Below, in pieces: positions 10,728 to 15,297 of a DNA stretch of 17,206 nt. The DNA is taken from NCBI GenBank assembly GCA_937124505.1, contig CAKZKV010000159.1:1-17206 (forward strand), written 5' to 3'. The position numbers were made by a program, and so were the translations under genes. Within the stretch, counting starts at the first letter, position 1. Every line of letters starts with the position of its first letter. Below the pieces are notes generated by a model. It saw only the letters and a list, made by a program, of their open reading frames with translations, searched no databases and was not told the DNA's origin. Source of the stretch: an uncultured Alphaproteobacteria bacterium. Its GTDB lineage: Bacteria; Pseudomonadota; Alphaproteobacteria; Micavibrionales; Micavibrionaceae.

Positions 10728-11561
10728 CTATTTCTCCGGAGCATAAGGAACACTTAGACGATAATAACTATTGGGGTAGTGTTCATATTCATCTAGAATG
10801 CGATCGATTGCCCCGTTATTTTGTGCATTGAAAAGTGCAGTATTGAGCATATTTTGCAAATCATTTTCACCTCTTGCCATCATATAAGCATTCCCAAATA
10901 AACGAACAGGGCGTTTCAATGGAATGCGGCGGATGCTGTTCGGATTCATTTTTAGAAAATCCTCCGCCTGGGCTTTTTCAGAAAAGGTGACGTCTGCCTT
11001 TCCCGTGGAAACTTCTAATAAGAGGTGAGTGAAATCAGTTAATTCCATTAAGGATACAGTTTGTGCTTTTGGAAAATCAGTTGCAGCAATAACAGGAGAC
11101 GAGCTTCCGTCCATAACGGCTATTTTATACTCAGAATTATTCAGCTTTTCTATATTTTGGTCAAAGCGGGTATCTTCTACACGTGCATAAGCATGCACAG
11201 CCGTAAAGAAAACAGGGGTAGTAAAATATGCCTCACGGGCACGCGGCGTACTCGTCCAGACAGGATTACAAAGCAGGTCAAACCGTCCGTTTTTTAGACT
11301 CTCAATCATAGAGGCCGTACCAGTTTCTTCAACCCATTCAACCTTTAAGTTTAATTCTCCGGCAATATATTCAATGATATCATGAGCAAAGCCTGATATT
11401 TCATCTGTGGCAACGTCTTTAATCAGTTGTGGCGGGTAAATAATGTATCCACAACGAATTGTATTGGTGCGCATAATGCGTTCAAAAGCAGGTTCATCTG
11501 CGGCAGAGACTGAGAAATTAATAATAAGGCATAATAGAAAGACAGAAAAATTTTTCATCAT
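10728..11561 (-). CDS. Family 3 extracellular solute-binding protein (SBP2)
   Basis: 277 residues. Residues 1-20 are a signal peptide ending SVSA before ADEPAFER, so the protein is probably periplasmic. The mature part has the bacterial periplasmic amino-acid-binding fold (SBP_bac_3): MRTNTIRCGYIIYPP, FAHDIIEYIAGELNLKVEWVE, ESLKNGRFDLLCNPVWTSTPRAREAYFTTPVFF, and a C-terminal DRILDEYEH. Such proteins usually feed polar amino-acid ABC transporters, but no permease or ATPase gene is in the window, so a ligand-sensing role is possible. The ATG at 11561 overlaps the stop of the upstream SBP1 fragment (ATGA), showing translational coupling in the original operon. It is a paralogue of SBP1, with the same MRTxTIxCGY opening. 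Confidence 0.88.
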   Translation of the reverse strand: MMKNFSVFLLCLIINFSVSAADEPAFERIMRTNTIRCGYIIYPPQLIKDVATDEISGFAHDIIEYIAGELNLKVEWVEETGTASMIESLKNGRFDLLCNPVWTSTPRAREAYFTTPVFFTAVHAYARVEDTRFDQNIEKLNNSEYKIAVMDGSSSPVIAATDFPKAQTVSLMELTDFTHLLLEVSTGKADVTFSEKAQAEDFLKMNPNSIRRIPLKRPVRLFGNAYMMARGENDLQNMLNTALFNAQNNGAIDRILDEYEHYPNSYYRLSVPYAPEK

Positions 11562-11760
11562 TTTTTCAGCTTATATTGAGGCTGAATATCAAAATTGATA
11601 CGGCGTTCAGGGTCATATTTGTCGAGAATTTTGGCTAATGTGCCGTCATTAATCATTTCGAGGGAGGCGATATCCAGCATCCGCTGAAATCTGTATTCAC
11701 CTCCACGTAGTGCAATAGAGACAGGCGCGGTCATTAAAAGGCCGTCATATTCAACTTTGC
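11558..11760 (-). pseudogene. SBP1, C-terminal fragment (gene split by insertion)
   Basis: This is the 3' end of a family 3 solute-binding protein gene whose 5' part lies at 14664-15297. It encodes about 66 residues from KVEYDGLLMTAPVSIALRGG through DKYDPERRINFDIQPQ to the stop at 11558. Joining base 11760 to base 14664 keeps the codon phase and gives ...NPGKI-R-KVEYDG..., a 278-residue protein matching its 277-residue paralogue downstream. The longer open frame up to 11989 is chimeric, running into the element, and its upstream residues resemble no SBP. The fragment has no start or signal peptide, so it is very unlikely to be made as a functional protein. Confidence 0.92.
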
Positions 11761-11768
11761 GGATTTTT
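11761..11768. repeat. Target site duplication, left copy (GGATTTTT)
   Basis: Eight bases directly outside the left terminal repeat. The identical octamer lies directly outside the right terminal repeat at 14664-14671. On the coding strand it corresponds to AAAAATCC in the SBP1 gene. Confidence 0.95.
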
Positions 11769-11789
11769 GGTAGTGGGTCAGTTTGAAAT
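11769..11789 (+). repeat. Left terminal inverted repeat
   Basis: Begins GGTAGTGGGTCAGTTTGAAA and is identical over 21 bases to the reverse complement of 14643-14663; the next base differs. Read on the minus strand from the other end, the same repeat supplies the TAG stop that truncates SBP1. Confidence 0.95.
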
Positions 11790-11797
11790 TTAGAAAA

Positions 11798-11825
11798 TTT
11801 ACCCTCTGGACAAACCGTGCCATAA
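11798..11825 (+). promoter_or_regulatory. Possible promoter for the small KGG-type gene
   Basis: TTTACC (11798-11803), a 17-base spacer and CATAAT (11820-11825) lie just before the ATG at 11833. A start about seven bases after the -10 box would coincide with the ATG, which fits a leaderless message; no Shine-Dalgarno sequence is visible. The -35 match is only fair. Confidence 0.4.
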
Positions 11826-11832
11826 TAGCTGT

Positions 11833-12060
11833 ATGACCGATAAACGCATAAAACGCCCACGTGACCCTTCCCAGTTAGCCAAGCTGATAATGGACATTGC
11901 CACTGGCGAAGTCGAGGATAAAACGCCGGATGACGGCAAAGACCCGGCTGCTGTCGCTCTTGGTAAGAAGGGCGGCGCGGCCAGAGCAAAAAGCCTTACG
12001 CCGGATGAACGCAAGGCTATTGCTAAAAAAGCGGCTAAGGAACGATGGAAAGAGGACTAA
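11833..12060 (+). CDS. Small basic KGG-type protein, mobile-element accessory
   Basis: 75 residues, rich in lysine and alanine. The N-terminal half is RPRDPSQLAKLIMDIATGEVED, followed by a low-complexity linker. A KKGGAARAKSLTPDERKAIAKKAAKERW tail (in two runs from about residue 44) resembles the KGG motif of stress-induced and histone H1-like small proteins. Proteins of this kind are common in alphaproteobacteria, often annotated as hypothetical, RNA-binding or histone-like; I infer nucleic-acid binding from charge alone. It starts 43 bases inside the left terminal repeat and is convergent with the cargo operon, overlapping its last gene by four bases. It may be part of the transposon's own functions rather than of the toxin-antitoxin set. 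Confidence 0.75.
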   Translation: MTDKRIKRPRDPSQLAKLIMDIATGEVEDKTPDDGKDPAAVALGKKGGAARAKSLTPDERKAIAKKAAKERWKED

Positions 12061-12701
12061 AAAGCCCCTTCTATATCTTTTATCACTTCTAAGTGTACAT
12101 CGGTTGGAAGCGGAGCGATTGAATAGTAAATTTTAGTGTCAAATGAAGCCGCCCTTCTCCTATCCAAAATAAACGAATGTGGGCTTAAATGTGGACTTGC
12201 TGTTCTATCATAATCAATTATTAACCCAGTTGGTTGAAAAGAGGAAATACTATCCGCGTAGCCAGAGACGGTATCATTTATCTTTTTACAAGCAGCATTA
12301 AATCCTTTAAACGCCTCATCTAATTCTTTATCAAGAAAAACTTCTACCTCACTTACATACGTTCTCTTTGTATTGGGCATTTCGACCAGAGAGAAGTTTA
12401 GTTCTTTAGTAACAAGGTCAATCATTTCATCAATAAATTCATCTGAGATACTGGTGTTTGCCTTTGTATCTACAACAACCCCGTCTGGATGCACCTCTAT
12501 ACTTTCTATTACAGTTCCTTTAAAAGTACCGTGCATAAATTTACGTTTCTCTGAATCTTGATAATCTTCATATGTTTCAGGTACACGCATAAATCTAAAT
12601 TTTTCTTTCAAAAGTACGGCAGCATCCGGCATATAAACTCCGCCGGACTCCGCAGCAAAAAACCGAATTGTTCTGCTGGCTACAATTTTACGCAAATCCA
12701 T
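12057..12701 (-). CDS. Unknown protein, third gene of the toxin-antitoxin operon
   Basis: 214 residues from the ATG at 12701, which has AAAAAAGGAC about nine bases upstream. The frame extends to an ATG at 12749 but without a ribosome site. The gene overlaps the end of the antitoxin gene by 14 bases, so it is almost certainly co-translated. The sequence starts MDLRKIVASRTIRFFAAESGG and includes KRKFMHGTFKGTVIESIEVHPDG, FIDEMIDLVTKELNF, VFLDKELDEAFKGFNAACKK and a C-terminal DTKIYYSIAPLPTDVHLEVI. It has no signal peptide, membrane helix or catalytic motif I can name, and looks like a soluble alpha/beta protein. I do not recognise the family. The position suggests a partner, chaperone or modulator of the toxin-antitoxin pair, or a separate defence cargo (inference). 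Confidence 0.75.
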   Translation of the reverse strand: MDLRKIVASRTIRFFAAESGGVYMPDAAVLLKEKFRFMRVPETYEDYQDSEKRKFMHGTFKGTVIESIEVHPDGVVVDTKANTSISDEFIDEMIDLVTKELNFSLVEMPNTKRTYVSEVEVFLDKELDEAFKGFNAACKKINDTVSGYADSISSFQPTGLIIDYDRTASPHLSPHSFILDRRRAASFDTKIYYSIAPLPTDVHLEVIKDIEGAF

Positions 12702-13230
12702 GTGCTGAAGTCCTTTTTTCTTGGGTTGGCAATAGATGAGGCATTTCATATGGCTTGGGCGAGTCCTCTATTGATCTTTTATGGACTCCTGTTTCCTGCC
12801 CATAGTCTCTACCATAAATTCCAGATCCAATGAGAGTTAAAGGGCTTTTTCTTGTCTCCATGGATTCTATAAATCCCTCGAATTGTTTTTCGTTATATGA
12901 AGCGGGACAATGCGCTTTTTCTGAAAAGTCATTTGTCATTTTTAAAAAATCAGGAAATGTAACAAAACGAACAACAAGAGCGACATCAAGTTTTGATGCT
13001 ATATCTAAAAGTGTTTGGAGAGTAAGGTTCCCATACTCCGGGTTTTCATAGCGGGATGATATGGTGCTTTGTGGCACACCTAAAATTTCTGAAAATTCTT
13101 TCTGCGTTTTATCCCCGCGCAAACTTCTAATTTGCGCAGCTAAAAATATCCTCACGCTTTCCGATAGATAAGCATCCCTGAATTTCTTATTCTTAATTTG
13201 CTCAATTATCGGACGAAGGTAAGAAATCAT
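12688..13230 (-). CDS. XRE-family antitoxin / transcriptional regulator with C-terminal extension
   Basis: 180 residues from the ATG at 13230. A Cro/CI helix-turn-helix lies at about residues 30-85 (AAQIRSLRGDKTQKEFSEILGVPQSTISSRYENP, split at residue 40), then LTLQTLLDIASKLDVALVVRFVTF, a segment typical of antitoxins paired with Gp49/HigB-like toxins. Residues 100-180 are a polar, probably flexible tail not usual for these antitoxins, which are often about 100 residues. The start overlaps the toxin gene by 29 bases, giving the toxin-first HigBA order. It would bind the toxin and repress the operon, probably at the palindrome at 13641-13656. The frame stays open upstream to 13296, but MISYLRP is the first sensible start. 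Confidence 0.85.
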   Translation of the reverse strand: MISYLRPIIEQIKNKKFRDAYLSESVRIFLAAQIRSLRGDKTQKEFSEILGVPQSTISSRYENPEYGNLTLQTLLDIASKLDVALVVRFVTFPDFLKMTNDFSEKAHCPASYNEKQFEGFIESMETRKSPLTLIGSGIYGRDYGQETGVHKRSIEDSPKPYEMPHLLPTQEKRTSAHGFA

Positions 13231-13603
13231 ATTCGACTGTTGTCCTTTCTCCGTTTTCAATTTCAATTCTCCTTTTTGCTGCCTTCTCAAACCCACGCTT
13301 GTTGTCTTTCTTGTCTTTCTTTACCCCCTCGTTGCACATCACAAATATCTTTTCTTCTTCGATAAAATACCCATAAATTCGATGCTCCATTTTCGACTTC
13401 ATCTTAAATTTTATTTCATAAGACTCCGGGCTTCCTCCTGATTCATGTTCTGCGTAGGGATGCCTCCATTGGCTTTTTGCAACCATCTTTAAATAATTCA
13501 AACGGGCAAGAACTTTACCTCGCATATCCTCTGGAAGCGAACAGTACCATTCTGCTACCTCATTTTTTCCTTCTTTATCAGTATAACACTTGAATGTCCA
13601 CAT
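13202..13603 (-). CDS. HigB/RelE-like toxin (Gp49-like)
   Basis: 133 residues. The pattern SYEIKFKMKSKMEHRIYGYF, then IFVMCNEGVKKDKKDNKRGFEKAAKRR, corresponds to the core of the phage-derived Gp49/HigB family (beta strands with an arginine, R75, then FxKK and a closing helix). Family members are ribosome-associated mRNA endonucleases that inhibit translation. The N-terminal CYTDKEGKNEVAEWYCSLPEDMRGKVLARLNYL (in two parts) is the usual helical hairpin. It is the first gene of a minus-strand operon starting in the 175-bp gap before the transposase. The ribosome site is weak. Toxicity is inferred from family and from pairing with an XRE gene. Confidence 0.85.
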   Translation of the reverse strand: MWTFKCYTDKEGKNEVAEWYCSLPEDMRGKVLARLNYLKMVAKSQWRHPYAEHESGGSPESYEIKFKMKSKMEHRIYGYFIEEEKIFVMCNEGVKKDKKDNKRGFEKAAKRRIEIENGERTTVEYDFLPSSDN

Positions 13604-13613
13604 TTCATTACAA

Positions 13614-13678
13614 TTTTGCTATATTTTAGCTTGTGTATTTATCGCAAAATTGCGATATTAACCATTAATGTAGCAAAA
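13614..13678. promoter_or_regulatory. Nested palindromes, probable operator of the toxin-antitoxin operon
   Basis: ATCGCAA-AA-TTGCGAT (13641-13656) is a near-perfect palindrome that extends by one T/A pair. Around it, TTTTGCTA (13614-13621) and TAGCAAAA (13671-13678) form a second pair of inverted half-sites almost concentric with the first. The half-sites share a TTGCGA/TTTGCTA core. They lie 11-75 bp before the toxin start, where an XRE antitoxin would be expected to bind. Confidence 0.6.
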
Positions 13679-13749
13679 AGAGTAATGTTTTTAATGAGAT
13701 GAGTCGAATCTTTTATCTTTTTGTCTATTTTTAAACTGACTCTTTTTAC

Positions 13750-13778
13750 TTGACGGTAAGAATGTAAGGTCATATACT
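13750..13778 (+). promoter_or_regulatory. Transposase promoter
   Basis: TTGACG (13750-13755), exactly 17 bases, then TATACT (13773-13778). The ATG at 13779 directly touches the -10 box. A start about seven bases downstream would fall on the second ATG at 13785, so the transcript may be leaderless. AAGG at 13766-13769 could instead act as a ribosome site if a promoter further upstream is used. Confidence 0.65.
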
Positions 13779-14654
13779 ATGAGTATGAATAAGCTTGATA
13801 CACAGAAACGCGCCCAAATTCTCCAAATGCTTTGCGAGGGTATGTCTATACGCGCAATTACGCGGGTTACAGGGGCCAGCAAGAACACCGTAGCCAAGCT
13901 GCTTGTCGATGCAGGTACAATATTCTCTGAATATCAGGACGCCGCTTTTCGCAATCTTCCCTGCAAACGGCTTCAAGTTGATGAAATCTGGTCATTCGTT
14001 TACAGCAAGCAAAAGAACGTGCCGGATGGCATGGAAGGCGAAGCTGGCGATGTTTGGACTTGGGTTTCTTTTTGTGCGGATACAAAGCTTATGCCGTCAT
14101 GGTTTATCGGGAACCGGGATGCAGATTCGGCCAAAGCCTTTATGTGCGATCTGGCCGCGCGTCTTACCAACCGCGTTCAACTGACCAGTGACGGCCACAA
14201 ATCCTATCTGGAAGCTGTAGAGCAAGCTTTCGGCGCGGATATTGATTACGCCATGCTGGTTAAAATCTATGGCAGCACGGTAGAGGGCCAGAAGCGTTAC
14301 AGCCCTGCGGAATGTGTGGGATGCCGCAAGGACAAAATAACCGGAAGGCCTGACAAAGCCCATGTTTCAACAAGCTATATCGAGCGCCAGAATTTGACAT
14401 TGCGGATGCACATGCGCCGGTTTACACGCCTGACAAATGCTTTCAGCAAAAAAGTTGAAAACCATGCCCACGCCTTCGCCCTGAATGCAATGTATTATAA
14501 TTTCGTGAAAATTCACGGTTCTCTGCGCGTTACCCCTGCAATGGAAGCTGGCGTTACAGACAAGCTTTGGAGTATGAATGATCTTGTGGCTTTGATTGAA
14601 GCGCGGGAAGTCCCAAAAAAGCGTGGGTCTTATAAAAAGAAGATTTCAAACTGA
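13779..14654 (+). CDS. IS1-like DDE transposase
   Basis: 291 residues from 13779, or 289 if translation starts at the second ATG (13785), which the promoter position favours. An N-terminal helix-turn-helix (residues 8-45, KRAQILQMLCEGMSIRAITR, then GASKNTVAKLLVDAG) is followed by a zinc-free DDE catalytic domain: D68 in LQVDEIWSFVYSKQKN, D138 in LTSDGHKSY and E202 in SYIERQNLTLRMHMRRFTRLTN (split). These are hallmarks of IS1-family single-frame transposases (ISMhu11 type), so no programmed frameshift is needed. The stop TGA (14652-14654) lies inside the right terminal repeat. The frame is intact with all three acidic residues, so the element may still be active. Confidence 0.93.
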   Translation: MSMNKLDTQKRAQILQMLCEGMSIRAITRVTGASKNTVAKLLVDAGTIFSEYQDAAFRNLPCKRLQVDEIWSFVYSKQKNVPDGMEGEAGDVWTWVSFCADTKLMPSWFIGNRDADSAKAFMCDLAARLTNRVQLTSDGHKSYLEAVEQAFGADIDYAMLVKIYGSTVEGQKRYSPAECVGCRKDKITGRPDKAHVSTSYIERQNLTLRMHMRRFTRLTNAFSKKVENHAHAFALNAMYYNFVKIHGSLRVTPAMEAGVTDKLWSMNDLVALIEAREVPKKRGSYKKKISN

Positions 14655-14663
14655 CCCACTACC
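14643..14663 (-). repeat. Right terminal inverted repeat
   Basis: Exact 21-base inverse of 11769-11789. It overlaps the last four codons of the transposase and provides the premature TAG codon for SBP1 at 14659-14661. Confidence 0.95.
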
Positions 14664-15297
14664 GGATTTTTCCCGGATTTGATTCCATAAATTCTTCTCC
14701 GGCGCTGGTTTCTGTGATGGTAATGTCAGCTTTCCCATTTGCGACGCTTAGAAATAATTCTGCCTGTGTGGCAAGTTGCGGCATTTCGTATTTTTGTGAC
14801 AGAGGGTAATCGCGTACTGAAATTTTACTGTACAAATCCCCTTCAATGGTCGCCATCGTTACATCGGGAGCATTGGCGCCCTGTATATTATTATCAAATC
14901 GTGTATCTCCGGCTTTTACGAAGGCATCGGCCCCCAAATAAAAGAGAGGAGAGAGATAATCAATCTCTCGTGCGCGCTCAGCGTTATAGCCAACGATTGT
15001 GCAATAGGCATCAAAGCGATTATTTTCAAGTGCTGCTATGAAATCCCCCCACCCAATTTCCTCTGTCCATTCTATTTTAAGGCTTAGTCTGTCGCCCAGA
15101 GTTTCCATGTAATCATAGAAGATACCTGACATTTCTCCGGTATTTGGGTTTTTATCAAGGTATATCGACCATAAGCCATATCCACATTTAATTGTTCCCG
15201 TACGCATGACGCGTTCATAAACGGACTCTTTGTCTGTGGCATAGGCAGGTAAGGTAACAAAAATGCAAAAGAAAGCAGTGAGTAAAAATTTTACCAT
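14659..15297 (-). pseudogene. SBP1, N-terminal fragment of a family 3 solute-binding protein
   Basis: 212 codons. The host part is 14664-15297, and the final arginine and TAG stop come from the inserted element. Residues 1-20 are a signal peptide (FVTLPAYA before TDKESVYER). The mature part shows MRTGTIKCGYGLWSIYLD, GIFYDYMETLGDRLSLKIEWTEE, NRFDAYCTIVGYNAERAREIDYLSP (split) and DITITETSAGEEFMES, the SBP_bac_3 pattern shared with SBP2. The missing C-terminal 66 residues, including the last helix of the fold, lie at 11558-11760. The truncated protein could still be exported but probably cannot fold normally. It begins 15 bases after the bPH gene, in an apparent operon. Confidence 0.92.
14664..14671. 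repeat. Target site duplication, right copy (GGATTTTT)
   Basis: Identical to 11761-11768 and immediately outside the right terminal repeat. This copy is in frame with the SBP1 N-terminal coding sequence. Confidence 0.95.

Follow-up and report, generated by a model that had tools for sequence, protein, structure and literature searches.

Insertion sequences of the IS1 family are short elements of about 1 kb that carry no cargo and leave a target duplication of 8-9 bp, and IS1 itself makes its transposase from two frames by frameshifting. Most transposons for which carriage of defence genes is known are either large, such as the Tn7-like elements, or members of the Tn3 family. Here we describe an element at positions 11769-14663 of the window, by which we mean the whole stretch of 17,206 nucleotides that was analysed (contig CAKZKV010000159.1 of assembly GCA_937124505.1, from an uncultured alphaproteobacterium of the Micavibrionaceae). 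The element joins an IS1-type transposase to a toxin-antitoxin (TA)-like operon. Components of such an arrangement are known, and the papers are cited here and below for those sections that bear on them: insertion sequences with passenger genes are described as tIS (PMC7986276), TA pairs are described inside Tn3-family transposons (PMC7157771), and Tn7-like transposons carry defence cargo (PMC8649781). Furthermore, PD-Lambda-2 is a three-gene system reported to give abortive phage defence (PMC9519451). The evidence presented below indicates that the element is a complete member of a widespread small IS1-type family in which a conserved module at each end is combined with exchangeable cargo, in this copy the TA-like operon; we put the probability of this reading at about three in four.

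The element is complete and measures 2,895 bp. Its inverted ends (GGTAGTGGGTCAGTTTGAAAT; 11769-11789 on the plus strand and 14643-14663 on the minus strand) match each other at 21/21 bp, the right one overlapping the transposase stop, and the 8-bp target duplication GGATTTTT is exact (8/8) on both sides, at 11761-11768 and 14664-14671. Inside the left end lie a plus-strand gene that we call KGG (11833-12060), the three minus-strand genes of the operon, for a third protein, an XRE protein and a Gp49/HigB-like protein, and the plus-strand transposase gene that reaches the right end. The insertion splits a minus-strand SBP_bac_3 gene into a 5' part (14672-15297) and a 3' part (11558-11768). When the flanks are joined in silico with one target copy and the element omitted, a single open SBP_bac_3 frame of 283 residues is obtained. 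A transposon with perfect ends, target duplication, transposase and TA-like operon is thereby confirmed as real, and the exact duplication together with the closed empty site rules out two separate elements flanking unrelated DNA, a case that a preliminary description of the window had named as one that would undo it. That description had correctly recognised the terminal repeats, the duplication, the intact DDE transposase at one end and the single transposon with a three-gene TA-like operon as cargo. Its list of genes holds for the HigB-like, XRE and third genes and has to be extended by the overlooked KGG gene, so that the element has five genes, not four.

The genome search that the preliminary description had proposed yielded further copies with other cargo and with 8-bp duplications of their own. 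At least 576 genome stretches in a named-genome collection matched the transposase, and the best 80 were kept. Paired ends surrounded the transposase in 70 of these 80 loci, and the duplications were 8/8 in 61 and 7/8 in three. Random pairs with the same spacing, drawn 35,000 times in related loci, matched at 8/8 in 15 cases, so chance is no explanation for the target duplications. Eleven loci (nine, not counting L056, together with L095 and L104) were dropped according to their ends. The 69 kept loci, 68 with paired ends plus L056, form with the window element and six relatives a set of 76 delimited elements of 2,035-4,303 bp (median 3,031). Eight elements were measured in the window's genome or elsewhere in its order, and all of them are flanked by exact 8-bp copies; transposase matches occur in 11 of the 142 genomes of that order. 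A second family element in the window's own genome (C337:1893-4315; 2,423 bp, with an 8-bp duplication) has a transposase 65% identical to that of the window and carries a ClpP-like protein as cargo, as judged from Pfam counts and by eye. Going by record titles, hosts of the family include Alpha- and Gammaproteobacteria, Bdellovibrionota, Nitrospirae, Verrucomicrobia, Planctomycetota, Zixibacteria and Omnitrophota, many of the records being metagenome bins whose single taxonomic placements may be wrong. Relatives of the transposase were found in 19 of 72,556 plasmid records, with exact duplications in three of the four plasmid elements looked at, and in one of 50,697 phage records, that of Brevundimonas phage vB_BpoS-Gurke (ON529850.1, 174791-175666; 33.7% identity). 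A second set, from viral contigs, comprises 46 delimited elements and includes near copies such as L180 and L181. On one viral contig a 1,323-bp element with an exact duplication (L143:4518-5840) has no genes besides a truncated KGG gene and that of the transposase, and is perhaps a cargo-less deletion form.

Cargo had been thought exceptional for an IS1-type element, and on this point the preliminary description is not supported: in this branch all 76 elements, none shorter than 2,035 bp, carry more than a transposase. The cargo region between KGG and the transposase spans 404-2,849 bp, and more than 400 bp of DNA also lies beyond the transposase in 30 of the 76. A scan of the cargo covered 124 of 170 frames of at least 95 residues; most copies of the most frequent trio were excluded, as were some short frames of doubtful status. 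It counted the Pfam domains HTH_3 (12), Peptidase_M78 (9), NYN (7), P63C (5), SDH_protease (4) and HigB-like (4), and many single ones. With PADLOC these 124 proteins matched 124 families, most often PD-Lambda-2_B (7) and RmrA (up to 6); 124 of the 130 nearest flanking frames, used as a control, matched 42 families, none more than three times. The cargo is richer in defence-like genes than the flanks, a difference due in part to methylases that match many models.

The commonest cargo found contains a HigA-peptidase gene; it is present in 22 of the 76 elements and matches PD-Lambda-2_B in every one of them (22/22). A HigB-like gene was found in 12 of these elements and a shared third gene in 19, and the gene order is that of the window's operon. 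By hand count, with the window included, TA or anti-phage genes are present in at least 33 of the 76 elements. Cargo of this kind includes M78-XRE genes (L033, L048, L073 and L105), restriction genes (L043, L088 and L100), HicB (L045), Panacea (L012) and PemK (L014). Proteins with a P63C domain also recur as cargo (L014, L049, L075, L090 and L106). A RES-Xre pair at the element on an Acidiphilium multivorum plasmid (L113) abuts the right end but lies outside it, and was rejected as cargo.

Cargo is exchanged between the conserved ends within the family. The PD-Lambda-2-like elements L078 and L101 have nearly the same transposase as L089, which carries other cargo, and close transposases are again combined with different cargo in L139 and L155 and in L147 and L150. 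Throughout these three comparisons DNA identity is 82.8-84.4% over the transposase module, the left end also aligns and the cargo does not. The left-end alignment takes in part of the KGG region for L078/L101-L089 and L139-L155, and the end only for L147-L150. On a transposase tree of 120 rows, 30 of which bear the PD-Lambda-2-like label, 19 changes of the label are needed, at least 10 of them forced, and trees with one origin make up 0% of 200 bootstrap trees, in a bootstrap that is not fully settled. Shuffled labels require a mean of 26.7 changes against the 19 observed; the label is thus more clustered than in the shuffles, and inheritance plays a part alongside exchange. Replacement may perhaps proceed by recombination between copies at the conserved ends.

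The first constant component is the transposase, a single open frame (13779-14654, plus strand; 291 residues, with a conserved start at ATG 13785). Its match to DDE_Tnp_IS1 (PF03400) reaches 35.1 bits against a Pfam cut-off of 24.1 and is limited to residues 196-231, and the NCBIfam IS1 equivalog model gives 65 bits, below its cut-off of 100. Residues D68, D138 and E202, which we take to be the catalytic triad, do not vary among the 11 rows of alignment A1. A promoter, TTGACG-17-TATACT (13750-13778, plus strand), ends six bases upstream of ATG 13785, a position kept across the family: the transposase start could be placed in 68 of the 76 elements, and the promoter ends six or seven bases upstream of the ATG in 40 of the 44 that score at least 9/12. 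Furthermore, a ATGCTTGA box near -39 with at most one mismatch is present in 50 of the 68, compared with 4% of random stretches, and a 4-mer resembling a ribosome site precedes the transposase in just one of the 68. These features suggest that the transposase message is probably leaderless across the family and that transposase expression is probably under the element's own control.

The second constant component is the KGG gene, which encodes 75 residues in the window and belongs to no Pfam family. A profile grown from five seeds and trained on the 76-element set finds the gene, 63-88 residues long, in all 76 elements, always on the transposase strand and usually 66-400 bp from the left end. 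As the profile was trained on this set, the viral-contig set is the independent test, and there the gene was found in 42 of 46 delimited elements, on the transposase strand in 40 of the 42. Among 125 flank pieces (367 kb) it occurs once, in the left flank of L045, perhaps as part of a second or broken neighbouring element. Conserved motifs are K-R-P-x-D, A-T-G, G-G, A-R-A, R-x-x-I-A, A-A and R-W, and few of the genes (11 of 76) have a ribosome site. No Pfam family was matched by more than one of 40 members at E 0.1, and no solved structure by KGG below E 0.4; one plasmid record labels the protein 'histone H1'. The predicted structure has three helices (mean predicted local distance difference test score, pLDDT, 78.5; predicted template modelling score 0.39) and is too small for a fold to be named. 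Because KGG is nearly as constant as the transposase, a role in the element itself is suggested, most likely in transposition or regulation.

A divergent viral-contig subgroup (L180, L181, L183 and L187) has no KGG gene at the left end. In these four elements the first half of the KGG motif occurs in a small frame behind the transposase, on the opposite strand (E 1.5e-6, 0.019, 0.035 and 0.035). The second half was not found in the small frames, and by eye a GGKAR-like stretch stands upstream, as if the halves were permuted. At its start the P63C-domain protein of L014 resembles, also by eye, the second half of KGG.

The window's operon is read leftwards in the order toxin, antitoxin, third gene, with overlapping genes. 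The likely toxin is the Gp49/HigB-like protein (13202-13603, minus strand), which passes the PF05973 cut-off marginally (25.4 against 23.9 bits). The likely antitoxin is the XRE protein (12688-13296, minus strand), with an HTH_3 domain alone and no peptidase domain. The third gene (12057-12749, minus strand), of unknown family, overlaps the end of KGG by 4 bp. The likelier starts of the last two genes, at 13230 and 12701 respectively, are each preceded by an AGGA-type ribosome site. Homologues of the toxin were limited to the protein itself both in 193 related genomes and in 385 genomes of the class, two sets that overlap, so that the same genes without the terminal repeats, which the preliminary description had named as a possible refutation, were not encountered. 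No solved-structure relative of the toxin was found, viral contigs contained no homologues of the toxin or the XRE protein, and plasmids none of the third gene. In the plasmid search the toxin and the XRE protein found one distant counterpart each; the two genes are adjacent on a Thiothrix unzii plasmid and ordered as in the window (27.8% identity for the toxin; 41.8% over 44% for the XRE protein). That record has a different third gene and no transposase of this family, which indicates that the toxin-XRE pair also exists alone. The third gene has matches in two of 384 other genomes of the class, one of them weak (2e-4) and at a contig end (G376). The best match (24%, 2e-16; G197) stands behind genes for a small protein and an XRE protein and is divergent from a 285-residue IS1-type transposase, in an element that has decayed and lost clear ends. 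No blastp link connects the window's third gene with other cargo of the family. Because it recurs as the third gene of the G197 operon, the operon is best regarded as a set of three genes that moves with this transposon family.

Several observations weigh against the reading of the feature as a member of a modular family with TA-like cargo. The 80 loci were the best matches, not a random sample; nine of them have no second end, two (L095 and L104) no good one, and L056 extends to the ends of its contig. Among the kept elements, L040, L042 and L060 have duplications of 7/8, L092 and L100 of 6/8, and L046 and L061 of 4/8. L055 (59 residues), L048 and L143 have a truncated or disrupted KGG frame, and the gene is missing from its usual place in four of the 46 viral-contig elements. 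In the window itself, toxin and antitoxin match their own families weakly, no PADLOC model is matched below E 0.01 by either protein, and the toxin folded alone gives a useless model (pLDDT 42.7). Finally, much of the cargo is without known function (48 Pfam families for 124 proteins, many having none), so that a defence role is not established family-wide.

We propose that the left module consists of the end repeat and KGG, and the right module of the transposase with its promoter and the other end repeat. Judged from the ends and duplications, the transposase moves the whole unit and leaves the 8-bp duplication. The close transposases with unrelated cargo show that the DNA between the modules, and in many cases that past the transposase as well, is replaced as the element circulates. 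Within the operon the XRE protein most likely represses transcription of the set and restrains the toxin, and the third gene most likely makes toxin release dependent on a trigger, phage infection for example, by likeness to the PD-Lambda-2-like sets of 22 sister elements. Since this commonest cargo (22/76) is PD-Lambda-2-like, phage defence appears at least as likely a role for the operon as addiction. That the operon chiefly penalises loss of the transposon or the surrounding DNA, as the preliminary description had supposed, is unlikely. The TA gene order and overlaps agree with addiction, but chromosomal insertions are seldom lost by segregation, the commonest cargo is likened to a phage-defence system, and sister elements without such operons, carrying quite other cargo, show that upkeep of the family needs none. 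Addiction has nevertheless been suggested for TA pairs inside Tn3-family transposons, in the part of that work cited here (PMC7157771).

The great variety of cargo, including genes without obvious use, and the lack of a close relative of the toxin in the genomes searched would suit an operon caught by chance, with no role for element or host. However, all frames of the operon are open and overlapping, its third gene is again third in the G197 operon, and the PADLOC families matched by cargo are three times those of flanking genes, which makes a plain passenger improbable. A link between toxin state and jumping, with the antitoxin also repressing the divergent transposase, has been proposed for Tn3-family pairs in the cited part of the same source (PMC7157771). 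The window offers a setting for it, as a single 175-bp region between the divergent operon and transposase genes contains a palindrome, TATCGCAA-AA-TTGCGATA (13640-13657), a candidate operator of the operon. This palindrome is weak (p ~0.045), however, and among the PD-Lambda-2-like elements the 21 that could be tested yielded no significant palindrome (lowest p 0.065). Furthermore, the box at the transposase promoter is found across the family irrespective of cargo, which speaks against a cargo antitoxin as the main controller. For an antitoxin acting as transposase repressor no support was found beyond the weak window palindrome, and the coupling as a whole is very improbable.

The interrupted SBP_bac_3 gene has relatives at 12 places in its own genome and at 15 and 11 in two others, these being three of 11 genomes searched; none were found at the threshold used in the remaining eight. 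Because the gene belongs to such an expanded set, its loss may cost the host little. In the window, SBP_bac_3 genes were noted at 10728-11561 and 14659-15297.

An element that is small and widespread, with ends that stay fixed while the cargo changes, is a natural vehicle that could carry single TA or anti-phage cassettes from one bacterium to a distant one. It also offers a route to new cassettes, namely to delimit the element and inspect the DNA between KGG and the transposase, and it raises the question of which function keeps a 75-residue protein nearly as constant as the transposase. A literature text search, with ISfinder and the core IS1 papers beyond its reach, found no earlier description of a small IS1-type family with constant KGG and exchanged TA or defence cargo, and no mention of ISMhu11, a name that the preliminary description had set beside IS1. 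Tentatively, and at somewhat less than even odds, we suggest an unrecognised multi-phylum family in which the IS1-type transposase and KGG form a fixed vehicle that exchanges TA and anti-phage cassettes, KGG being a dedicated transposition or cargo-exchange factor and the window's set a new anti-phage TA type.

With the IS1 family the elements share the DDE_Tnp_IS1 domain, perfect inverted ends and 8-bp duplications; they differ in their size of 2.0-4.3 kb and in having KGG and further DNA in each of 76 copies, and the window element, with 2,895 bp, has three cargo genes besides KGG and a transposase in a single frame. In gene order the operon resembles HigBA-like type II TA systems, with the likely toxin first, the likely HTH antitoxin second and overlapping genes. 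As far as the cited sections describe tIS, one transposase, short ends and passenger genes between them are shared (PMC7986276), whereas a second constant gene and exchange of cargo within the family are features of the elements described here, ISfinder listings lying outside this comparison. Tn3-family pairs likewise place a TA module beside a transposition gene (PMC7157771, in the part cited), but here a 291-residue IS1-type transposase replaces a TnpA of about 1,000 residues, the window element has no separate resolvase gene, and the TA module represents one kind of cargo among many. The order HigB-like, HigA-like, third gene is that given for PD-Lambda-2 in the section cited (PMC9519451), whose B component is matched in the 22 sister elements; the window's XRE protein, in contrast, has no peptidase domain, and thus not the HigA-peptidase fusion, and no PD-Lambda-2 match, and its third gene lacks a blastp link to the other cargo. 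A further parallel in organisation, within the sections cited, is with the Tn7-like transposons, where fixed transposition genes accompany highly varied cargo rich in defence and TA genes (PMC8649781), an arrangement built here around one IS1-type transposase in an element of a few kb.

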